This document shows positions 565-11,945 of a DNA stretch of 40,199 nt, in pieces. The stretch comes from an uncultured Anaeromyxobacter sp. GTDB lineage: Bacteria; Myxococcota; Myxococcia; Myxococcales; Anaeromyxobacteraceae. The stretch spans positions 1 through 40,199 of the forward strand of contig CAIOAK010000059.1 of NCBI GenBank assembly GCA_903855945.1, given 5' to 3'. Below the pieces are notes generated by a model that saw nothing but the letters and a program-made list of their open reading frames with translations, made no database searches and was not told where the DNA came from. Both the position numbers and the translations under genes were made by a program. Every line of letters begins with the position of its first letter. Within the stretch, counting starts at the first letter, position 1.

Positions 565-587
565 CGGTCATCCGTGGAGGTAGGGAT

Positions 588-2495
588 ATCTCGAACCGTC
601 TGTCGCTGACGTTGCTGCTCCTCCTCACGCCCGCCGCCGCGAAGGGCTGGATCTACCCGGAGCATCGGGACATCACGACGGAGGCCATCTCCCGGCTCTC
701 TCCCGCCGACCGCGCGACGCTCGAGGCGCTCTGGCGCGATGCCCGGTCCGGGTACGCGGCGAAGCTCTGCGAGCCGCTCTCGGCCGGCGACCAGGGGCTC
801 ACGCCCGCGTGCATCGACTTCGCCGCCTTCCCGGCCTTCTCGGGAGACCACTCCTGCAGCCCGAAGGAGGTGCTCGAGGTGATCCTCCCGGGCGACTGGA
901 TCCTGGACGTCGCCCGGGTCAGCGCCGAGACGAAGGAGGCGCTCGCCGGCACCTCCTCCCGCAAGCAGAGGAAGAACGCCGCGGCGACCAACGACCTGAA
1001 CCTCGAGGTCGTGGATCCGCAGTACGCCACCCGCGCGGGCGCCAACCACGCCCACTTCCTGCTCCCCCGGACGAGCGATGACCTGCGCGCCTACGTCGTC
1101 GCCTCCATGTCCGAGGGTGCGCCGCTCAACGCACTCGGTCTCCACGTGCAGTACCACGTCGCCGCGATGGGCCTGGCGCAGCGGCTCGCCTCGGGGGCGA
1201 TCCCTCCCTCCGAGCGGGCCGCCGCCGCCCGCGACATCGTCGCGCTGGAGGGGTTCGCCCTCCACTGGCTCGAGGACATCTACGCCTCCGGGCACGACGT
1301 GGGGACCTGGGGCAGCGATGCCTGGCGCAAGGGAACGCACGACTACTACGACGAGTTCGGCATCGACACCGTTGACTGGCGCGGTCGGACCGTGGTGGCG
1401 TTCGGCGACGCCCACATGTCCCCCGCGGATCTGCAGCGCGCCTCCACGGCGGTCGCGGACAGCTTGCGGCAGCTCGCCGGCGCCCTGCGCGCGGGGGACG
1501 AGCTGGGGAAGCTGTCCGAGGCATGGGGTCCAGGGCCCGTCGCCATCCGCGCCTTCGACTCCTGCAAGGAGACGGGCCAGCCCAGGCCGGGTGGATGGAA
1601 CGTGGCGGCTCCCCTCGCCGAACAGGTCGAGCGGATGCCCCGCCCGTCCATGGGGCCGGGGCAGGTGCACCTGCCCCGCTACCGCGACGAGCTCGGTCCC
1701 TTCCTGGGCGCATACGGGGCGCTGTCCGGCGGGGTCGGCTGGGGACCGGGACCGAGCGCCGTCTTCGCGGGAAACCTCGGCGCCGGGTTCCGGATCGGGT
1801 ACGGCGCGGACAGCCTGACCGGTTCCATCGGCACGGGAATCCTCTTCCTCGAGGCGGGCATCGAGGCCGACACGTCCGAGCGGGCCGGATGCGGAGGCAT
1901 GGCGGGCTGCGAGACGGCGGGAACCGCCGCCCTCTTTCCCCAGGTGCCGGCCCGGATCGGAATGAGCTTCGGGATGCGACTCCCCTTCTGGATCATCCCC
2001 GGCGACATGCTCCTCCTCGGGCCGGTGCTGGCGCTCGCCGCACCGTCGGCGTTGAACCGGGTCGTGGTCGAGGCTGCGAGCGGCGGGCTCATCCCGCTCG
2101 AGCGGAGCTTCGAGACGGGAGCGGGGGTCTTCCAGATCGTGGCCGGGCGTGAAGCCCGCGCCGTGCTCTTCGGCTACGTCGAGGATCTGATGGGCGTCGT
2201 TCCCGTGGGGGTCCTGCCCGACGGGACGCCCCAGTACGGAGCGGTGAAATTCAAGTCGGTGCAGCTCCAGTTCCCGGTGCTCGAGTGGACCCCGTTCCGG
2301 AGCTTCGCCACGCAGCTCACGTTCGCGGCGCAGATCCAGCTCGGGTTCTCGGTGGGCATCCCGACCTCCACCCAGGTGATGTATCCGGCGGGGGGCACAT
2401 TCACGTCGTCGCCCGGCTGGTCGGTCTGGTTGCGCGGCGTGTTCGACGGGCGCTACTTCTTCGGCTCCCGGGAGGATCTGCAGAGCGCCGAGTGA
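588..2495 (+). CDS. Secreted zinc-dependent S1/P1 nuclease or phospholipase C-like protein
   Basis: The frame is open from a GTG at 534 (653 aa; residue numbers below count from there). A GGAGG at 576-580 sits 7 nt before an ATC at 588. Starting there gives (M)SNRLSLTLLLLLTPAAAKG, an ideal signal peptide that would leave Trp39 as the mature N-terminus. TTG 555 is the conventional alternative. W39 and H44 have the W1/H6 spacing of P1 nuclease; H244-x3-D248-x5-H254 matches H116/D120/H126 of P1 and H126/D130/H136 of clostridial PLC; H269-x3-D273 matches H149/D153. H172/H174 with D161 may be the remaining pair. The last 280 or so residues are Gly/aromatic-rich and look beta-stranded, perhaps a barrel or carbohydrate/lipid-binding fold. 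Substrate (nucleic acid or phospholipid) cannot be told. It converges with the phosphoesterase gene with a 2-bp gap. Confidence 0.7.
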   Translation: MSNRLSLTLLLLLTPAAAKGWIYPEHRDITTEAISRLSPADRATLEALWRDARSGYAAKLCEPLSAGDQGLTPACIDFAAFPAFSGDHSCSPKEVLEVILPGDWILDVARVSAETKEALAGTSSRKQRKNAAATNDLNLEVVDPQYATRAGANHAHFLLPRTSDDLRAYVVASMSEGAPLNALGLHVQYHVAAMGLAQRLASGAIPPSERAAAARDIVALEGFALHWLEDIYASGHDVGTWGSDAWRKGTHDYYDEFGIDTVDWRGRTVVAFGDAHMSPADLQRASTAVADSLRQLAGALRAGDELGKLSEAWGPGPVAIRAFDSCKETGQPRPGGWNVAAPLAEQVERMPRPSMGPGQVHLPRYRDELGPFLGAYGALSGGVGWGPGPSAVFAGNLGAGFRIGYGADSLTGSIGTGILFLEAGIEADTSERAGCGGMAGCETAGTAALFPQVPARIGMSFGMRLPFWIIPGDMLLLGPVLALAAPSALNRVVVEAASGGLIPLERSFETGAGVFQIVAGREARAVLFGYVEDLMGVVPVGVLPDGTPQYGAVKFKSVQLQFPVLEWTPFRSFATQLTFAAQIQLGFSVGIPTSTQVMYPAGGTFTSSPGWSVWLRGVFDGRYFFGSREDLQSAE

Positions 2496-6716: not shown

Positions 6717-7289
6717 TCAATTGGCGGGGGCGCGCGCCGCCGCCGCCAGGTCGGCCGCCAGCGCCGAGAGCCCCTTTCCGAGGGCCGCCACCGAGGCCGG
6801 AACGTCACCGGCGGGGCCCCGTTCCCGCAGCCGGGTCTCGCCGTCGATCGGGCGGCCGCCGCGCGGCGTGACCCTCCATCGGGCGATGACGGTCGCCCCT
6901 CCCGACGCCTCTGCCTCGAAGCGGATGAGCTCCACCGAGGCGGACACCTCCGGGGGCGAGCCGAGCGGCCACGGCCAGCGGACGACTTCCCGGGCCGGTA
7001 TCCGGGCGCGGAGCTGCTCCGAGAGGGCGCGGGCGACGAGTTCGTCGAGCGGGGCGGCCCAGCGGTCGCCCGTGGCGTAGGCCACCTGCTCGGGCCCGAC
7101 CCGGGTGGCCACCTCCGGCCGCGACAGGTAGGGCGGAAGGGTCAGGGGGCCGAGCCCCAGGGCGGGGATGGCGGCGGCGGCCGACGGCGTCCCGTCCACG
7201 GGGAGGGTGAAGTAGCGCGACGTGTCGGTTCGCGGCCCGAAGCAGCCGGGCAGGAGGGCGAGCGCGACGACCAGGGCGAGTGTCCTCAT
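6717..7289 (-). CDS. PqiC-like ABC transport auxiliary lipoprotein
   Basis: 190 residues with lipobox LPGC (Cys16). RYFTLP near the mature N-terminus, then GLGPLTLPPYLSRPEV and the A-x-GDRWAAPLDELVARALSEQL stretch are the hallmarks of the ABC_trans_aux (PqiC/DUF330) family, outer-membrane lipoproteins that work with MCE proteins. It overlaps the end of mlaD by 4 bp (ATGA), so it is translationally coupled and is the last gene of the lipid-transport operon. A 61-bp gap separates it from the S46 peptidase, which may belong to a different transcription unit. Confidence 0.88.
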   Translation of the reverse strand: MRTLALVVALALLPGCFGPRTDTSRYFTLPVDGTPSAAAAIPALGLGPLTLPPYLSRPEVATRVGPEQVAYATGDRWAAPLDELVARALSEQLRARIPAREVVRWPWPLGSPPEVSASVELIRFEAEASGGATVIARWRVTPRGGRPIDGETRLRERGPAGDVPASVAALGKGLSALAADLAAAARAPAN

Positions 7290-8242
7290 GGCTTCCCCTC
7301 CGGGCGGCCGCGCACGATCTGGCTGGGATCCCGCTCCAGGCTGTCGGCCAGCACCCGGAGCGAGCGGGCCGCCTGCCCCACCTCGCGCAGCGTCTGTTCC
7401 AGTTGCGCCGGTACCGGAGCGCCGGGCGCGATGGAGAGCTTCACCTCCCGGAGCGTGCCGTCGAGCTGATCGAGCGCGGTGGCGAGCCGCTGCATGGCCC
7501 CCCGGGCGTCGCCGGCCACGCCGGGCAGCTCCTTCTCGAGCGACCGGGCCGCGTCGCGGATGGCGACGAGCGCCCGGTCCATGCTGGCGATCGTCCGCGG
7601 GAGCTCCTTCCCCGCCTGGTCGATCCGACCGGAGGCCTGGCTCACCCCGCGGGCCGCGGCGCGGAAATCCGCGATCAACCCCTCGAGATCGAGCGCCTGG
7701 AGCTTGCCGAGCACCCGGGCCGCGTCCGACTGGAGGGCCTGGAGCCCGGGCTCGACCTGGACCGGGATCACGGGGTACGGGAGCGGGAAGGGGGGCGGCT
7801 CGGGCGGTCGGGCGTCGGCGATGATGTCGAGGTCCACGTACCGCCGCCCGGAGAGGAAGCTCTCGAGCTCCAGCCGGGCGCGCAGGCCGTGGGCGACGAG
7901 CGTCTTCACCACCTCCGGGTCGCCGAGGTCGGTGGTCTCCCCCATCTCCTGGATGCGCGACTGGTTCAGCTCGATCACCACCGGAATGTAGAGCCCCTGC
8001 AGCGGCGCCTCCGGTGAACCGATGGAGAGGTGGATGGAGGCCACCCGCCCCACCGGGACTCCCCGGAACTTCACCGCCGAGTCCCGCTCCAGGCCGGCGA
8101 TCTCCTGCGAGAAGACCACCACGAACCGGACCTTCCGCTGGAAGACCCGGCTCCCGCCGAGCCAGACCGACGCCGCGACACCCAGCGCCACGGCTGCCAG
8201 GACGAAGGCGCCGACCCGTCGGGGATTGAACCTGCGCGCCAT
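7286..8242 (-). CDS. mlaD: MlaD-type MCE substrate-binding protein
   Basis: 318 residues: positively charged N-terminus, one membrane helix (about 11-29, VGAFVLAAVALGVAASVWL), then a single MCE domain of about 40-130 with the typical F-x-x-V-x-GL-x-x-x-S-x-V-x-F-RGVPVGRV core, and a long helical tail to the C-terminus that probably forms the hexameric tube or coil. MCE proteins shuttle phospholipids between the inner and outer membranes with an MlaE/MlaF ABC core. It starts 9 bp after mlaF behind GGAGG and its stop overlaps the PqiC-like lipoprotein start. Could equally be named as a generic MlaD/PqiB/Ttg2C family member. Confidence 0.92.
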   Translation of the reverse strand: MARRFNPRRVGAFVLAAVALGVAASVWLGGSRVFQRKVRFVVVFSQEIAGLERDSAVKFRGVPVGRVASIHLSIGSPEAPLQGLYIPVVIELNQSRIQEMGETTDLGDPEVVKTLVAHGLRARLELESFLSGRRYVDLDIIADARPPEPPPFPLPYPVIPVQVEPGLQALQSDAARVLGKLQALDLEGLIADFRAAARGVSQASGRIDQAGKELPRTIASMDRALVAIRDAARSLEKELPGVAGDARGAMQRLATALDQLDGTLREVKLSIAPGAPVPAQLEQTLREVGQAARSLRVLADSLERDPSQIVRGRPEGKP

Positions 8243-8251
8243 GCCGCCTCC

Positions 8252-9016
8252 TCAGGAGGGCGAGGGTTCGAGCCCTCGTCCCCCGGCAAAGAAGGCCCGG
8301 ACCTTGTCCGGACCGTGATCGCGAAGCTCGGCGGGGGGTCCCTCGGCGATGGCGCGCCGGGCCTCCCCGTCGAGGAAGAGGGCGCGGCTGGCGATGCCCA
8401 CGATGCTCGCCACGTCGTGCGTCACCACCACCACCGTGGTTCCGAGCGCGTCCCGCAGCTCCCGGATGAGCCGGTCGAGCCGCCTCCCGGTGGGCGGGTC
8501 GAGGCTCGCCGAGGGTTCGTCGATGAAGAGGATCTCGGGGTCGAGCGCGATGGCCCGGGCCAGCCCGGCCCGCTTCTGCATGCCGCCGGACAGCTCCCAG
8601 GGGTGGAAGGACTCGAAGCCGTGGAGCCCCACGAGCGCCAGCTTCAGCTCCACCACCTCCTGGATCCGGGCGGCGGAGAGCTTCGTGAACTGCTGCAGCG
8701 GCAGTGCGACGTTCTCCGCGAGCGTCATCGAGGTCCAGAGCGCGCTCCCCTGGTAGAGGACGCCCACCCGGCGCAGGAGCCGCTCCCGGTCGGCCGGGCC
8801 GGCGCGCGTGAAGCTCTCCTCCCCGAAGAGGACCTCGCCGGCGGCCGGCTCCTGCAGCCCCAGCATGTGGCGGAGCAGCGTGCTCTTGCCGCAGCCGCTC
8901 CCGCCCATGACCACGTAGATCTCGCCGCGCCGGATCTGGAAGTCGAGCCCCTCCATGACGACCCGATCGCCGAAGGCCATGGTCAGGTTGCGCACGGTGA
9001 GGATCGCGTCCGTCAC
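8252..9016 (-). CDS. mlaF: MlaF-type ABC transporter ATP-binding protein
   Basis: 254 residues. Walker A GGSGCGKST (38-46), Q-loop LYQGSALW, signature LSGGM followed by QKRAGLARAIALDP, Walker B ILFIDEP, a D-loop SASLDP, and the H-switch VTHD. The LSGGMxKR form is characteristic of the Mla/Ttg2A ATPase subgroup. The GTG at 9016 is preferred because GGGTGG lies 6 nt upstream; an in-frame GTG at 9022 overlaps the permease stop and is the alternative. It energises lipid transfer by the MlaE permease encoded just upstream, with which it overlaps or nearly overlaps. Confidence 0.93.
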   Translation of the reverse strand: MTDAILTVRNLTMAFGDRVVMEGLDFQIRRGEIYVVMGGSGCGKSTLLRHMLGLQEPAAGEVLFGEESFTRAGPADRERLLRRVGVLYQGSALWTSMTLAENVALPLQQFTKLSAARIQEVVELKLALVGLHGFESFHPWELSGGMQKRAGLARAIALDPEILFIDEPSASLDPPTGRRLDRLIRELRDALGTTVVVVTHDVASIVGIASRALFLDGEARRAIAEGPPAELRDHGPDKVRAFFAGGRGLEPSPS

Positions 9017-9018
9017 GG

Positions 9019-10167
9019 TCACCACCCGAAGAGGAAGAAGACGTACTGGAAGATGCCGCAGGCGGCGATGATGGCCACGACGCCGGTGACCACCGCCTTC
9101 GTCGCCGCCTCGCCCACCCGCTCCGAGCTCCGCTCCGCCTCGAGCCCGCGCGCCGTGCCGGTGAGCGCGATGAGCGCCCCGTAGACCGCCGACTTCACGA
9201 GCCCGCCCACGATGTCCCCCTGCGTGACCGACTGCGCGGTCTGGCGCAGGTAGGAGGCCACCGCCTGGTTCATCATGGTGGTGCCGACCGCCGCGCCGCC
9301 CAGGATGCCCATGAGGTCGGCGAAGAGCGTGAGGAGGGGCATCATGAGGGTGATCGCGACGAGCCGGGGCACCACGAGGAACTCGACCGGGGAGATGCCG
9401 AGCGTCCGCAGCGCGTCCACCTCCTGGGTGACCTTCATCGTGGCGATCTGCGCCGCGTAGGCCGCACCGCTCCGCCCGGCCAGGACGATGGCGGTGATGA
9501 GGGCCGCCATGTCCCGGGCCACCGCGATGCCCACGATGTCGGCCACGTAGTACTCGGCGCCGAACCGGCGCAGCTGCGTGATTCCCACGAAGGCCAGGAT
9601 GATCCCGACGAGGAAGTTCACGAGCGCGACGATGGGGAGCGCGCCCGGGCCGGCTCCCTCGAGCAGGAGCCCGAGGTCCTGGCCGCGGAAGCGGGCCCGT
9701 CCCGTGACGAAGCGCCCGAGCGCCACGGTGGTCTCGCCGACGAACGAGGCCACGTCGCGAACACGTTCCCGCCACCCGAGCGCCCGCCGCCCCAGCCGCT
9801 CGAGCCATCGGGGCTTCGGGGCCTGGCTCGACGGAGGGGGGAGCGCCGCCTCCTGCACGAGGGCCAGCATCCGGACGAGGGGCGGAGGGAGCCCCTCGTG
9901 GTCCACGGGGAGGCCCCGGGCGCGGCAGGTCTCGAGGACTCCGAACAGGAAGACCACGAGCCCGCTGTCCCAGCCCGCGATGCCGGAGGCGTCCACGCGC
10001 AGGGCGGTGGCGCCCGCACGCTCCAGCTCCCGGGTCACGTCCGCGGCGGAGGGGAGGGTGCCGGCGAGACGCCAGGTCCCGCGGAGCCGGAGGAGGAGGG
10101 TCGAATCCCCCTCGCGCGACGCCTCCATCGCGGCCAATGCCTCGGTCTGATCGCCCTCGCGAGCCAT
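9019..10167 (-). CDS. mlaE: MlaE-family permease with N-terminal STAS domain
   Basis: 382 residues. The first ~110 form a STAS-like domain (LRLRGTWRLAGTL...LRVDASGIAGWDSGLVVFL), corresponding to the separate MlaB subunit of E. coli. The remainder is the MlaE/DUF140 permease with about five helices; diagnostic are GLLLEGAGPGALPIVALVNF, RDMAALITAIVLAGRSGAAYAAQIATMKVTQEVDALRTLGI and the terminal FQYVFFLFGW. First core gene of the operon, 30 bp after the small secreted protein gene. With MlaF, MlaD and the PqiC-like lipoprotein it makes an inner-membrane lipid transporter; no MlaC-like shuttle is encoded nearby. Confidence 0.92.
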   Translation of the reverse strand: MAREGDQTEALAAMEASREGDSTLLLRLRGTWRLAGTLPSAADVTRELERAGATALRVDASGIAGWDSGLVVFLFGVLETCRARGLPVDHEGLPPPLVRMLALVQEAALPPPSSQAPKPRWLERLGRRALGWRERVRDVASFVGETTVALGRFVTGRARFRGQDLGLLLEGAGPGALPIVALVNFLVGIILAFVGITQLRRFGAEYYVADIVGIAVARDMAALITAIVLAGRSGAAYAAQIATMKVTQEVDALRTLGISPVEFLVVPRLVAITLMMPLLTLFADLMGILGGAAVGTTMMNQAVASYLRQTAQSVTQGDIVGGLVKSAVYGALIALTGTARGLEAERSSERVGEAATKAVVTGVVAIIAACGIFQYVFFLFGW

Positions 10168-10197
10168 CAGACCGAGCGTAGCACTCCGCGGCGGCTC

Positions 10198-10491
10198 CTA
10201 CTTGATGCCGAGCTTGTCGGCGCCCTTGTCCACACCCTTGTCGACGCCCTGGTTGGCGGCGCCCTGGACGGTGGGGGCGGCGGCGGCGCCCACGGAGCCG
10301 GCCTTCTTGGCGCCCGCGTCGACGGCCTTCTTCGACTGCTTCTTCCCCTCGGTCTTGGCGGCGTCCTTCACCTGCGCGCCGGCCGAGGCGCCCTGCGCCT
10401 TGGCCGCGTCCACGGAGGTGGGGATCTGGGCGAGGGTGAGGGCGGGCACGGCGGCGGCGGCGACGATCAGGGTGCGCAGGGTGTTCTTCAT
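10198..10491 (-). CDS. Small secreted Ala/Lys/Asp-rich protein upstream of mla genes
   Basis: 97 residues from the ATG at 10491, which has GGAG 8 nt upstream; nine extra codons upstream (to 10518) are open but lack support. A signal peptide (MKNTLRTLIVAAAAVPALTLA) is followed by a low-complexity mature chain built from Ala, Lys, Asp, Gly and Val, with short repeats of the type GVDKGVDKGADK. No cysteines. It lies 30 bp before the permease gene in the same direction, so it may be part of the same transcript. I cannot assign a function; the composition resembles small amphipathic periplasmic proteins. A chance open frame is unlikely given the clean signal peptide and ribosome binding site. Confidence 0.65.
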   Translation of the reverse strand: MKNTLRTLIVAAAAVPALTLAQIPTSVDAAKAQGASAGAQVKDAAKTEGKKQSKKAVDAGAKKAGSVGAAAAPTVQGAANQGVDKGVDKGADKLGIK

Positions 10492-10588
10492 CGGTTCTTC
10501 TCCACGAAGAGGGTTCACGGCTGGGGCCGCCTCTTAACGGGAGGGGCGGGCTCGCACCACCCGGAGTCCGTTCGGGACGCGATCGGGG

Positions 10589-10617
10589 TTGACCTCGCGC
10601 CGCGCGGCGGATTGGAT
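10589..10617 (+). promoter_or_regulatory. Possible sigma-70 promoter for argJ
   Basis: TTGACC at 10589-10594, a 17-bp spacer, and TTGGAT at 10612-10617. The ATG lies 8 bp beyond the -10, so a transcript from here would have almost no leader. The -10 match is weak (3 of 6), so this is tentative. Confidence 0.35.
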
Positions 10618-10625
10618 GGGGCCAC

Positions 10626-11945
10626 ATGCCCAGCACAGAGCTCTCGTTCGCGAACCGCGCCGCGCACCGCGCCTGGCTCGAGACGCAATCCCGCCTCCCG
10701 GCCGGCTTCCGGGTCGGAACGGCCCGCCTCGAGTTCATGCCCGTCGAGGCGCCGAAGCCGGCGCGGATGAACCTGACCCTCCTCGCGGTGGACGAGCCCA
10801 CGCCCTCCTTCGCCGCCAAGTTCACCCGCAACGCCTTCCCGGGCGCTCCGGTGATCGTCGGGCGCCGCCAGCTCGCCGGCCCGCGTCTCTCGGCCTGGGT
10901 GGTCAACAACAAGGTCTCGAACGTCTGCGCGCCGGGCGGCGTGGAGGCGGCCGAGGAGGTCTCGGCCGCGGCGGCCCGCCTGCTCGGCGTGGCGCCGGCC
11001 ACGGTCTTCCCGAGCTCCACCGGGGTCATCGGCTGGAGGCTCCCGGTGAAGGCGATGGTGGAGGCGCTTCCCGCGGCGGTGGAGGCGCTGCAGTCGGAGA
11101 GCGTGATGCCGGCGGCCGAGGCCATCCTCACCACCGACCTCTACCCCAAGGTGCGGCGGGCCGCGGTGGGGGAGGGCAGCATCGTGGGCATCGCCAAGGG
11201 GGCCGGGATGATCGAGCCCGACCTCGCCACCATGCTCGTCTACATCCTCACCGACCTGGCGGTGCCGCGCGACGAGCTGCGCGCGGCGCTCGACGAGGCG
11301 GTGGACGGAAGCTTCCAGTGCATCACGGTGGACTCGGACACGAGCACCTCCGACACGGTGGCGCTCGTCTCGTCGATGCGGCGGCCGGCGCCCGATCCCC
11401 GGGCCTTCCGGGAGGCGCTCGCGCGGGTGGCCCGCGACCTCGCCGAGGACGTGGTCCGCAACGGCGAGGGGGTCCACCACGTCCTGCACGTGGTGGTCCG
11501 GGGCGCCCCCGACGTGCGCGCGGCGCGCGAGATCGGGAAGGCGGTGGTCAACTCCCCGCTCGTGCAGTGCGCCGTGAACGGCAACGATCCCAACGTGGGA
11601 CGGCTGCTCGCCGCCATCGGGAAGCAGGCCGGGCACGTCGGGCTGCCCCTCGATCCCGCGGCGGTCCGCCTGCGGCTGGGGGGCGAGGCCATCTTCGAGG
11701 GGGGGGCCATGCGGCTCGACCCGGAGCGGGAGCGGCGGCTGCACCATCACATGAAGGAGGCCGAGCTCTACGCCTCGGTGCCGCCCCCCGACGGACTCAC
11801 CTTCCGCCCGCCCATCGACTTCCCCCCGCACGAGCGGTCGGTGGAGATCGAGATCGACCTGGGGCTGGGCGCGGCCTCCGCCGAGGTGCTCGGCGCCGAC
11901 CGCAGCCACGAGTACGTGACGGAGAACGCCGACTACCGGAGCTGA
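10626..11945 (+). CDS. argJ: Divergent ArgJ (glutamate/ornithine N-acetyltransferase)
   Basis: 439 residues. ArgJ transfers the acetyl group from N-acetylornithine to glutamate in arginine synthesis and self-cleaves before a Thr nucleophile. Family marks: SSTGVIGWRLPV, TTDLYPK, and GIAKGAGMIEPDLATML with Thr202 as the expected nucleophile, then TVDSDTSTSDT. Several normally strict motifs are altered: the usual GEGATK is GEGVHH, LVKTA is LVQCA, and DPNWGR is DPNVGR; the usual N-S-G-N-A segment is VVNNKVSNVCAPGG. It is therefore a diverged subfamily or specialised paralogue. GGGG upstream of the ATG is a weak ribosome site. No other arginine gene is adjacent. It overlaps the convergent META gene by 13 bp. 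Confidence 0.85.
   Translation: MPSTELSFANRAAHRAWLETQSRLPAGFRVGTARLEFMPVEAPKPARMNLTLLAVDEPTPSFAAKFTRNAFPGAPVIVGRRQLAGPRLSAWVVNNKVSNVCAPGGVEAAEEVSAAAARLLGVAPATVFPSSTGVIGWRLPVKAMVEALPAAVEALQSESVMPAAEAILTTDLYPKVRRAAVGEGSIVGIAKGAGMIEPDLATMLVYILTDLAVPRDELRAALDEAVDGSFQCITVDSDTSTSDTVALVSSMRRPAPDPRAFREALARVARDLAEDVVRNGEGVHHVLHVVVRGAPDVRAAREIGKAVVNSPLVQCAVNGNDPNVGRLLAAIGKQAGHVGLPLDPAAVRLRLGGEAIFEGGAMRLDPERERRLHHHMKEAELYASVPPPDGLTFRPPIDFPPHERSVEIEIDLGLGAASAEVLGADRSHEYVTENADYRS

Follow-up and report, generated by a model that had tools for sequence, protein, structure and literature searches.

A predicted outer-membrane barrel protein with a phospholipase C/S1-P1 nuclease-like N-terminal domain in Anaeromyxobacter

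The first plus-strand gene in the window, the whole stretch of 40,199 nucleotides that was analysed, probably encodes an outer-membrane-anchored, periplasm-facing, metal-dependent phosphodiesterase of the phospholipase C (PLC)/S1-P1 nuclease fold that cuts phospholipid head groups. A wider proposal, advanced more tentatively, is that the protein belongs to an unrecognised family, spread over at least seven phyla, of zinc phosphodiesterases that sit in the outer membrane and break down or remodel its phospholipids from the periplasmic side. The structure-matched PLC and S1/P1 enzymes are soluble and are not outer-membrane barrel proteins. If the proposal holds, barrel anchoring would bring zinc phosphodiesterase chemistry to the outer membrane, for which we know of few lipid-degrading enzymes, and it would name a family of hypothetical proteins of Bacteroidota, Acidobacteriota, Myxococcota, Pseudomonadota and others.

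Reading frame, export and family

588..2495, plus strand: open reading frame, 635 residues from ATC 588 (653 from GTG 534), supported as the coding frame by codon-position GC
576..580, plus strand: Shine-Dalgarno-like GGAGG, 7 nt 5' of ATC 588, read from the sequence
588..647, plus strand: signal peptide, residues 1-20, a hydrophobic stretch with predicted cleavage before Trp21

The reading frame closes with the stop codon at 2493-2495 and has no ATG at its start. ATC 588 has the best Shine-Dalgarno spacing; GTG 534 and TTG 555 are in-frame standard starts that leave space for a signal peptide, and same-genus relatives have an ATG start at a roughly equivalent position. An own-genome paralogue (L003, 1430-1443) also lacks an ATG ahead of its signal peptide, with CTG 1441 directly 3' of GGGGAGG. 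Residues are numbered here from ATC 588. The original prediction was numbered from GTG 534 despite giving coordinates from 588, and subtraction of 18 converts its W39 and H44 to W21 and H26, its H244, D248 and H254 to H226, D230 and H236, and its H269 and D273 to H251 and D255. With this shift, every residue that it named is present in the sequence.

Conservation was assessed in an alignment of 73 sequences, the most divergent at 32% identity, and in four distant relatives. Signal peptidase I needs a small residue before the cleavage site. Position 21 is Trp in all 73 aligned relatives, and the preceding residue is small in 72 of them (Ala in 58, Gly in 11, Cys in two and Ser in one; the remaining one has Val), in agreement with the predicted cleavage that leaves Trp at the mature N terminus. 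Export of the protein, with removal of the signal peptide predicted to expose Trp21, is well supported by prediction and by this conservation.

The 635-residue protein has no sequence-family match in Pfam, NCBIfam or PDB. The profile searches proposed with the original prediction gave no support: PF00882 (Zn_dep_PLPC) had no match above the Pfam cut-off in 13 family members, PF02265 (S1-P1_nuclease) had none either, and the protein's own genome is without any PF00882 or PF02265 match. Comparisons by hhalign with myxobacterial members of PF00882 and PF02265 and with 35 S1-P1 sequences gave nothing significant (probability at most about 10%), the weak alignment being confined to the signal/W...H segment. 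Because the sequence tests for both families fail, the protein is classed outside PF00882 and PF02265, in a new family of the PLC/S1-P1 fold. Matches to Ses_B (E 0.024), DUF1685 and PvuII lay below the cut-off and were taken as chance.

The own genome holds three copies in all, the other two being 55% and 39% identical. Matches were found in 8 of 195 genomes phylum-wide and in 11 of 296 genomes of a Bacteroidota draw, and scans of viral collections found no relative. A genome-contig scan returned 127 relatives; the best 80 were kept, and nearly all of these are full length. The family spans at least seven phyla: its tree, with phyla assigned from record titles, contains Bacteroidota, Acidobacteriota, Pseudomonadota, Myxococcota, Ignavibacteriota, Chlorobiota and Nitrospirota, mostly clustered by phylum, and the window protein groups with Anaeromyxobacter-like rows (100% SH-aLRT). 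Distant relatives in Parabacteroides and Hymenobacter have the same motifs and similar length and are annotated as hypothetical.

Fold and candidate metal ligands of the N-terminal domain

648..1634, plus strand: N-terminal helical domain, residues 21-349, of PLC/S1-P1 nuclease fold (AF2 and VIA)

The AF2 model of the N-terminal domain alone has a pLDDT of 94.6 and a pTM of 0.94. Structural comparison of this model gave 24 top rows that are all PLC or S1/P1 enzymes (Z 8.8-10.4), comprising alpha-toxin, B. cereus and Listeria PLC, S1, P1, SmNuc1, TBN1 and AtBFN2, and the next row is talin at 3.9. Since the Foldseek E-values for the domain are weak (about 0.1), the fold assignment rests on the VIA re-alignment with its clear gap from Z 8.8 to 3.9. 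Residue 1 of the domain model aligns with the first residue of the mature enzymes. In the full-length model (pLDDT 86.9, pTM 0.84), residues 21-340 likewise resemble PLC and S1/P1 structures (Z 8.1-9.5). A PLC/S1-P1-like fold of the N-terminal ~320 residues is therefore well supported by the models, and the helical zinc core of the original prediction holds at the level of the fold; P1 and alpha-toxin, the two structures named there for comparison, are both among the top 24 rows.

The candidate ligands in this domain are as follows.

648..665, plus strand: W-I-Y-P-E-H with Trp21 (mature 1) and His26 (mature 6), predicted metal ligands with the P1 W1/H6 spacing; 73 of 73
846..851, plus strand: Asp87-His88 of a GDH motif, favoured as the catalytic Asp candidate (S1 D65/PLC D55); 73 of 73 and four of four distant relatives
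1014..1016, plus strand: Asp143, alternative candidate for the catalytic-Asp ligand, 13 residues before His156; 73 of 73
1053..1055, plus strand: His156 (HF motif), putative P1 H60 equivalent by a weak profile alignment; invariant including distant relatives
1263..1295, plus strand: His226-x3-Asp230-x5-His236, with the P1 H116/D120/H126 spacing; invariant including distant relatives
1338..1352, plus strand: His251-Asp252-Tyr-Tyr-Asp255; the first two residues invariant, the last usually Asn in relatives

Sixteen positions (W21, E25, H26, R27, D77, D87, H88, D143, R149, H156, H226, E229, D230, H236, H251 and D252) are invariant in the 73 aligned sequences, and K248 is nearly so. In the four distant relatives, H26, D87, H88, H156, H226, D230, H236, H251 and D252 are all kept and position 255 is Asn; Trp21 is replaced by Tyr or Gly in two of the four, and D143 is missing in one. 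D87 is preferred over D143 because the distant relatives retain it and because a weak profile alignment places it on P1 D45. In shuffles of the 325-residue core, H-x3-D-x5-H alone arose in 2%, together with a downstream H-x3-[DE] in 0.13%, and W1 plus H6 in 0.08%; conservation across the 73 sequences is the stronger test of the ligand set. The elements required in the superfamily, a first His, a second His, H-x3-D-x5-H and a catalytic Asp (D87 or D143), are all present, and it is well supported from the alignment that, of the nine usual ligands, the N-terminal half has candidates for eight, all invariant. In S1, the main chain of the N-terminal Trp and His and Asp side chains hold the metals, and D65 is essential, D65N abolishing activity (PMC5201275). 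Listeria PLC loses its activity when a residue is added ahead of W1, and likewise in the D55N variant (PMC10576769).

Of the ligands proposed originally, W21, H26, H226, D230, H236 and H251 are invariant (n=73), but its D273, here D255, is Asp in only 15 of the 73; the invariant D87-H88, D143, H156 and D252 had been missed. Position 255 is otherwise Asn in 48, Ser in seven and Cys in three sequences, and the ninth ligand is therefore absent in most of the family. Of the trinuclear zinc centre proposed originally, one metal site would thus lack its standard carboxylate in most members, though not in the window protein, and the natural variation at the ninth ligand could be used to ask how many metals the PLC/S1-P1 fold needs. 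The Asn, Ser or Cys at this position in 58 of 73 sequences would also suit a reading in which the fold is kept and catalysis is lost or changed, leaving a barrel that carries a domain for binding metal or lipid, or an enzyme with two metals and a different phosphoester substrate, for instance a lipid A or isoprenoid phosphate. The invariant R27 and R149 and the nearly invariant K248 would likewise suit an anionic ligand. However, neither the remaining ligands nor the two candidate catalytic Asp residues vary, and such conservation is unusual in an enzyme that has lost its activity; we consider this reading improbable. Metal-dependent phosphodiesterase activity is likely.

Barrel, gene neighbourhood and substrate

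1692..2459, plus strand: outer-membrane beta-barrel, residues 369-624, about eight strands (AF2 full-length model; NspA Z 11.7)
1977..2105, plus strand: helical insert between barrel strands 4 and 5, residues 464-506, with helices 473-484 and 486-497 in the model

Residues 367-624 of the full-length model match the eight-stranded outer-membrane barrels NspA (Z 11.7), OmpA, PagL and OmpW (Z 9.1-11.7). The barrel strands alternate in hydropathy and a C-terminal aromatic is present, as is characteristic of outer-membrane barrels; most relatives terminate in FDWRxY[FYW] or a near variant, and the window protein has a short tail beyond the terminal aromatic (GRYFFGSREDLQSAE). These features uphold the barrel-like membrane module suggested originally, and an eight-stranded outer-membrane barrel formed by the last ~260 residues is well supported by the model. 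In proteins of this kind, an even-stranded barrel generally leaves an N-terminal domain in the periplasm. R464, P466, P471, D473, G499 and G500 of the helical insert are invariant, and the insert may place the enzyme at the surface of the membrane.

Within the window, the gene is isolated, flanked on the minus strand by DUF4833 and calcineurin-like phosphoesterase genes. About 4 kb away, an ABC_trans_aux lipoprotein, MlaD and ABC ATPase ORF (6717-11134, minus strand) resemble Mla-type lipid transport. The neighbours of the own-genome paralogues give no functional hint. In six of about 80 loci (L020, L024, L053, L076, L080 and L083, from Acidobacteriota and Pseudomonadota, none from Myxococcota), the family gene has, no more than two ORFs away, a PLD-family gene with a lipoprotein-like signal; in L024 this neighbour lies directly 3' and contains two HKD motifs. 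Those genomes commonly encode PLD-domain proteins, with several genes each, and by a rough estimate that ignores relatedness the adjacency exceeds chance expectation. Other conserved neighbours occur only among near relatives: an MS channel and an FGE-sulfatase-like gene in Bacteroidales, and an unnamed lipoprotein in Pseudomonadota. A lipoprotein-like family adjoins the family gene in six Pseudomonadota loci.

L053 9968-11125 (plus strand), L064 4538-5671 (minus strand) and L090 4829-5911 (minus strand): lipoprotein-like neighbour family, no Pfam match

In Parabacteroides, a distant relative begins 18 bp after a DUF5686 gene (L128, 1829-5824), possibly in an outer-membrane operon.

Phospholipids are regarded as a more likely substrate than nucleic acid, mainly because PLD-family genes adjoin in the six loci. 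The same architecture could instead act on nucleic acid or nucleotides, as an outer-membrane-tethered periplasmic S1/P1-type nuclease scavenging DNA or phosphate, which we regard as unlikely, if less so than a loss or change of catalysis. The N-terminal domain fits the nuclease SmNuc1 (Z 10.2) no worse than the PLCs (Z 10.4), and Z scores do not separate phospholipase from nuclease; P1-like features are the W1-H6 spacing and the HF motif, and the weak profile alignment is slightly better to PF02265 than to PF00882 members. Against a nuclease, some PLD-family neighbours are lipoproteins that resemble cardiolipin synthases, although the PLD family also includes nucleases, and outer-membrane anchoring would be better suited to a lipid substrate. 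Moreover, the base-binding pocket of S1 is lined by Phe and Asp, F81/D83 (PMC5201275), whereas here the residue two positions beyond F157 is not Asp but Leu (HFLL in the window protein) or another.

For the preferred phospholipid-cleaving enzyme, the following mechanism is envisaged. Removal of the signal peptide would expose Trp21, whose free amino group would help to bind metal, and the even-stranded barrel would keep the enzyme periplasmic, at the inner leaflet of the outer membrane. Phospholipid head groups would be cut there by phospholipase C-type chemistry, for lipid turnover or phosphate scavenging, and in some bacteria the enzyme may act together with the adjacent phospholipase-D-family lipoprotein.

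Comparison with known enzymes and barrels

Literature searches, mainly of open-access papers, returned no paper on this enzyme-barrel fusion. The PF00882 PLCs (B. cereus, Listeria, clostridial) share the helical fold (Z 8.8-10.4), the mature N-terminal Trp, H-x3-D-x5-H and the later His. They have no sequence match to the window protein and a spacing longer than the W1-H6 seen here, whereas the present family has a non-conserved ninth ligand and extra helices before H156. Those PLCs carry no extra domain or a lipid-binding beta-sandwich, in contrast to the predicted outer-membrane barrel of the window protein. The S1/P1 nucleases (PF02265; P1, S1, SmNuc1) share the fold (Z 8.9-10.2), the W1-H6 spacing, the H116/D120/H126-type motif and the HF motif. 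They too lack a sequence match, and the present family differs in the ninth-ligand Asp, which is mostly Asn, in the absence of the S1 base-pocket Asp and in the added barrel domain. NspA, OmpA, OmpW and PagL share the eight-stranded barrel fold (Z 9.1-11.7) but are without the N-terminal zinc domain, and we know of no conserved helical insert between their strands 4 and 5. PlpD and FplA, of the type Vd patatin-barrel class, share the arrangement of an N-terminal phospholipase and a C-terminal outer-membrane barrel; however, theirs is a patatin serine hydrolase on a 16-stranded Omp85-type barrel with POTRA, whereas the window protein has a predicted zinc fold (PMC11116518, PMC5724010).
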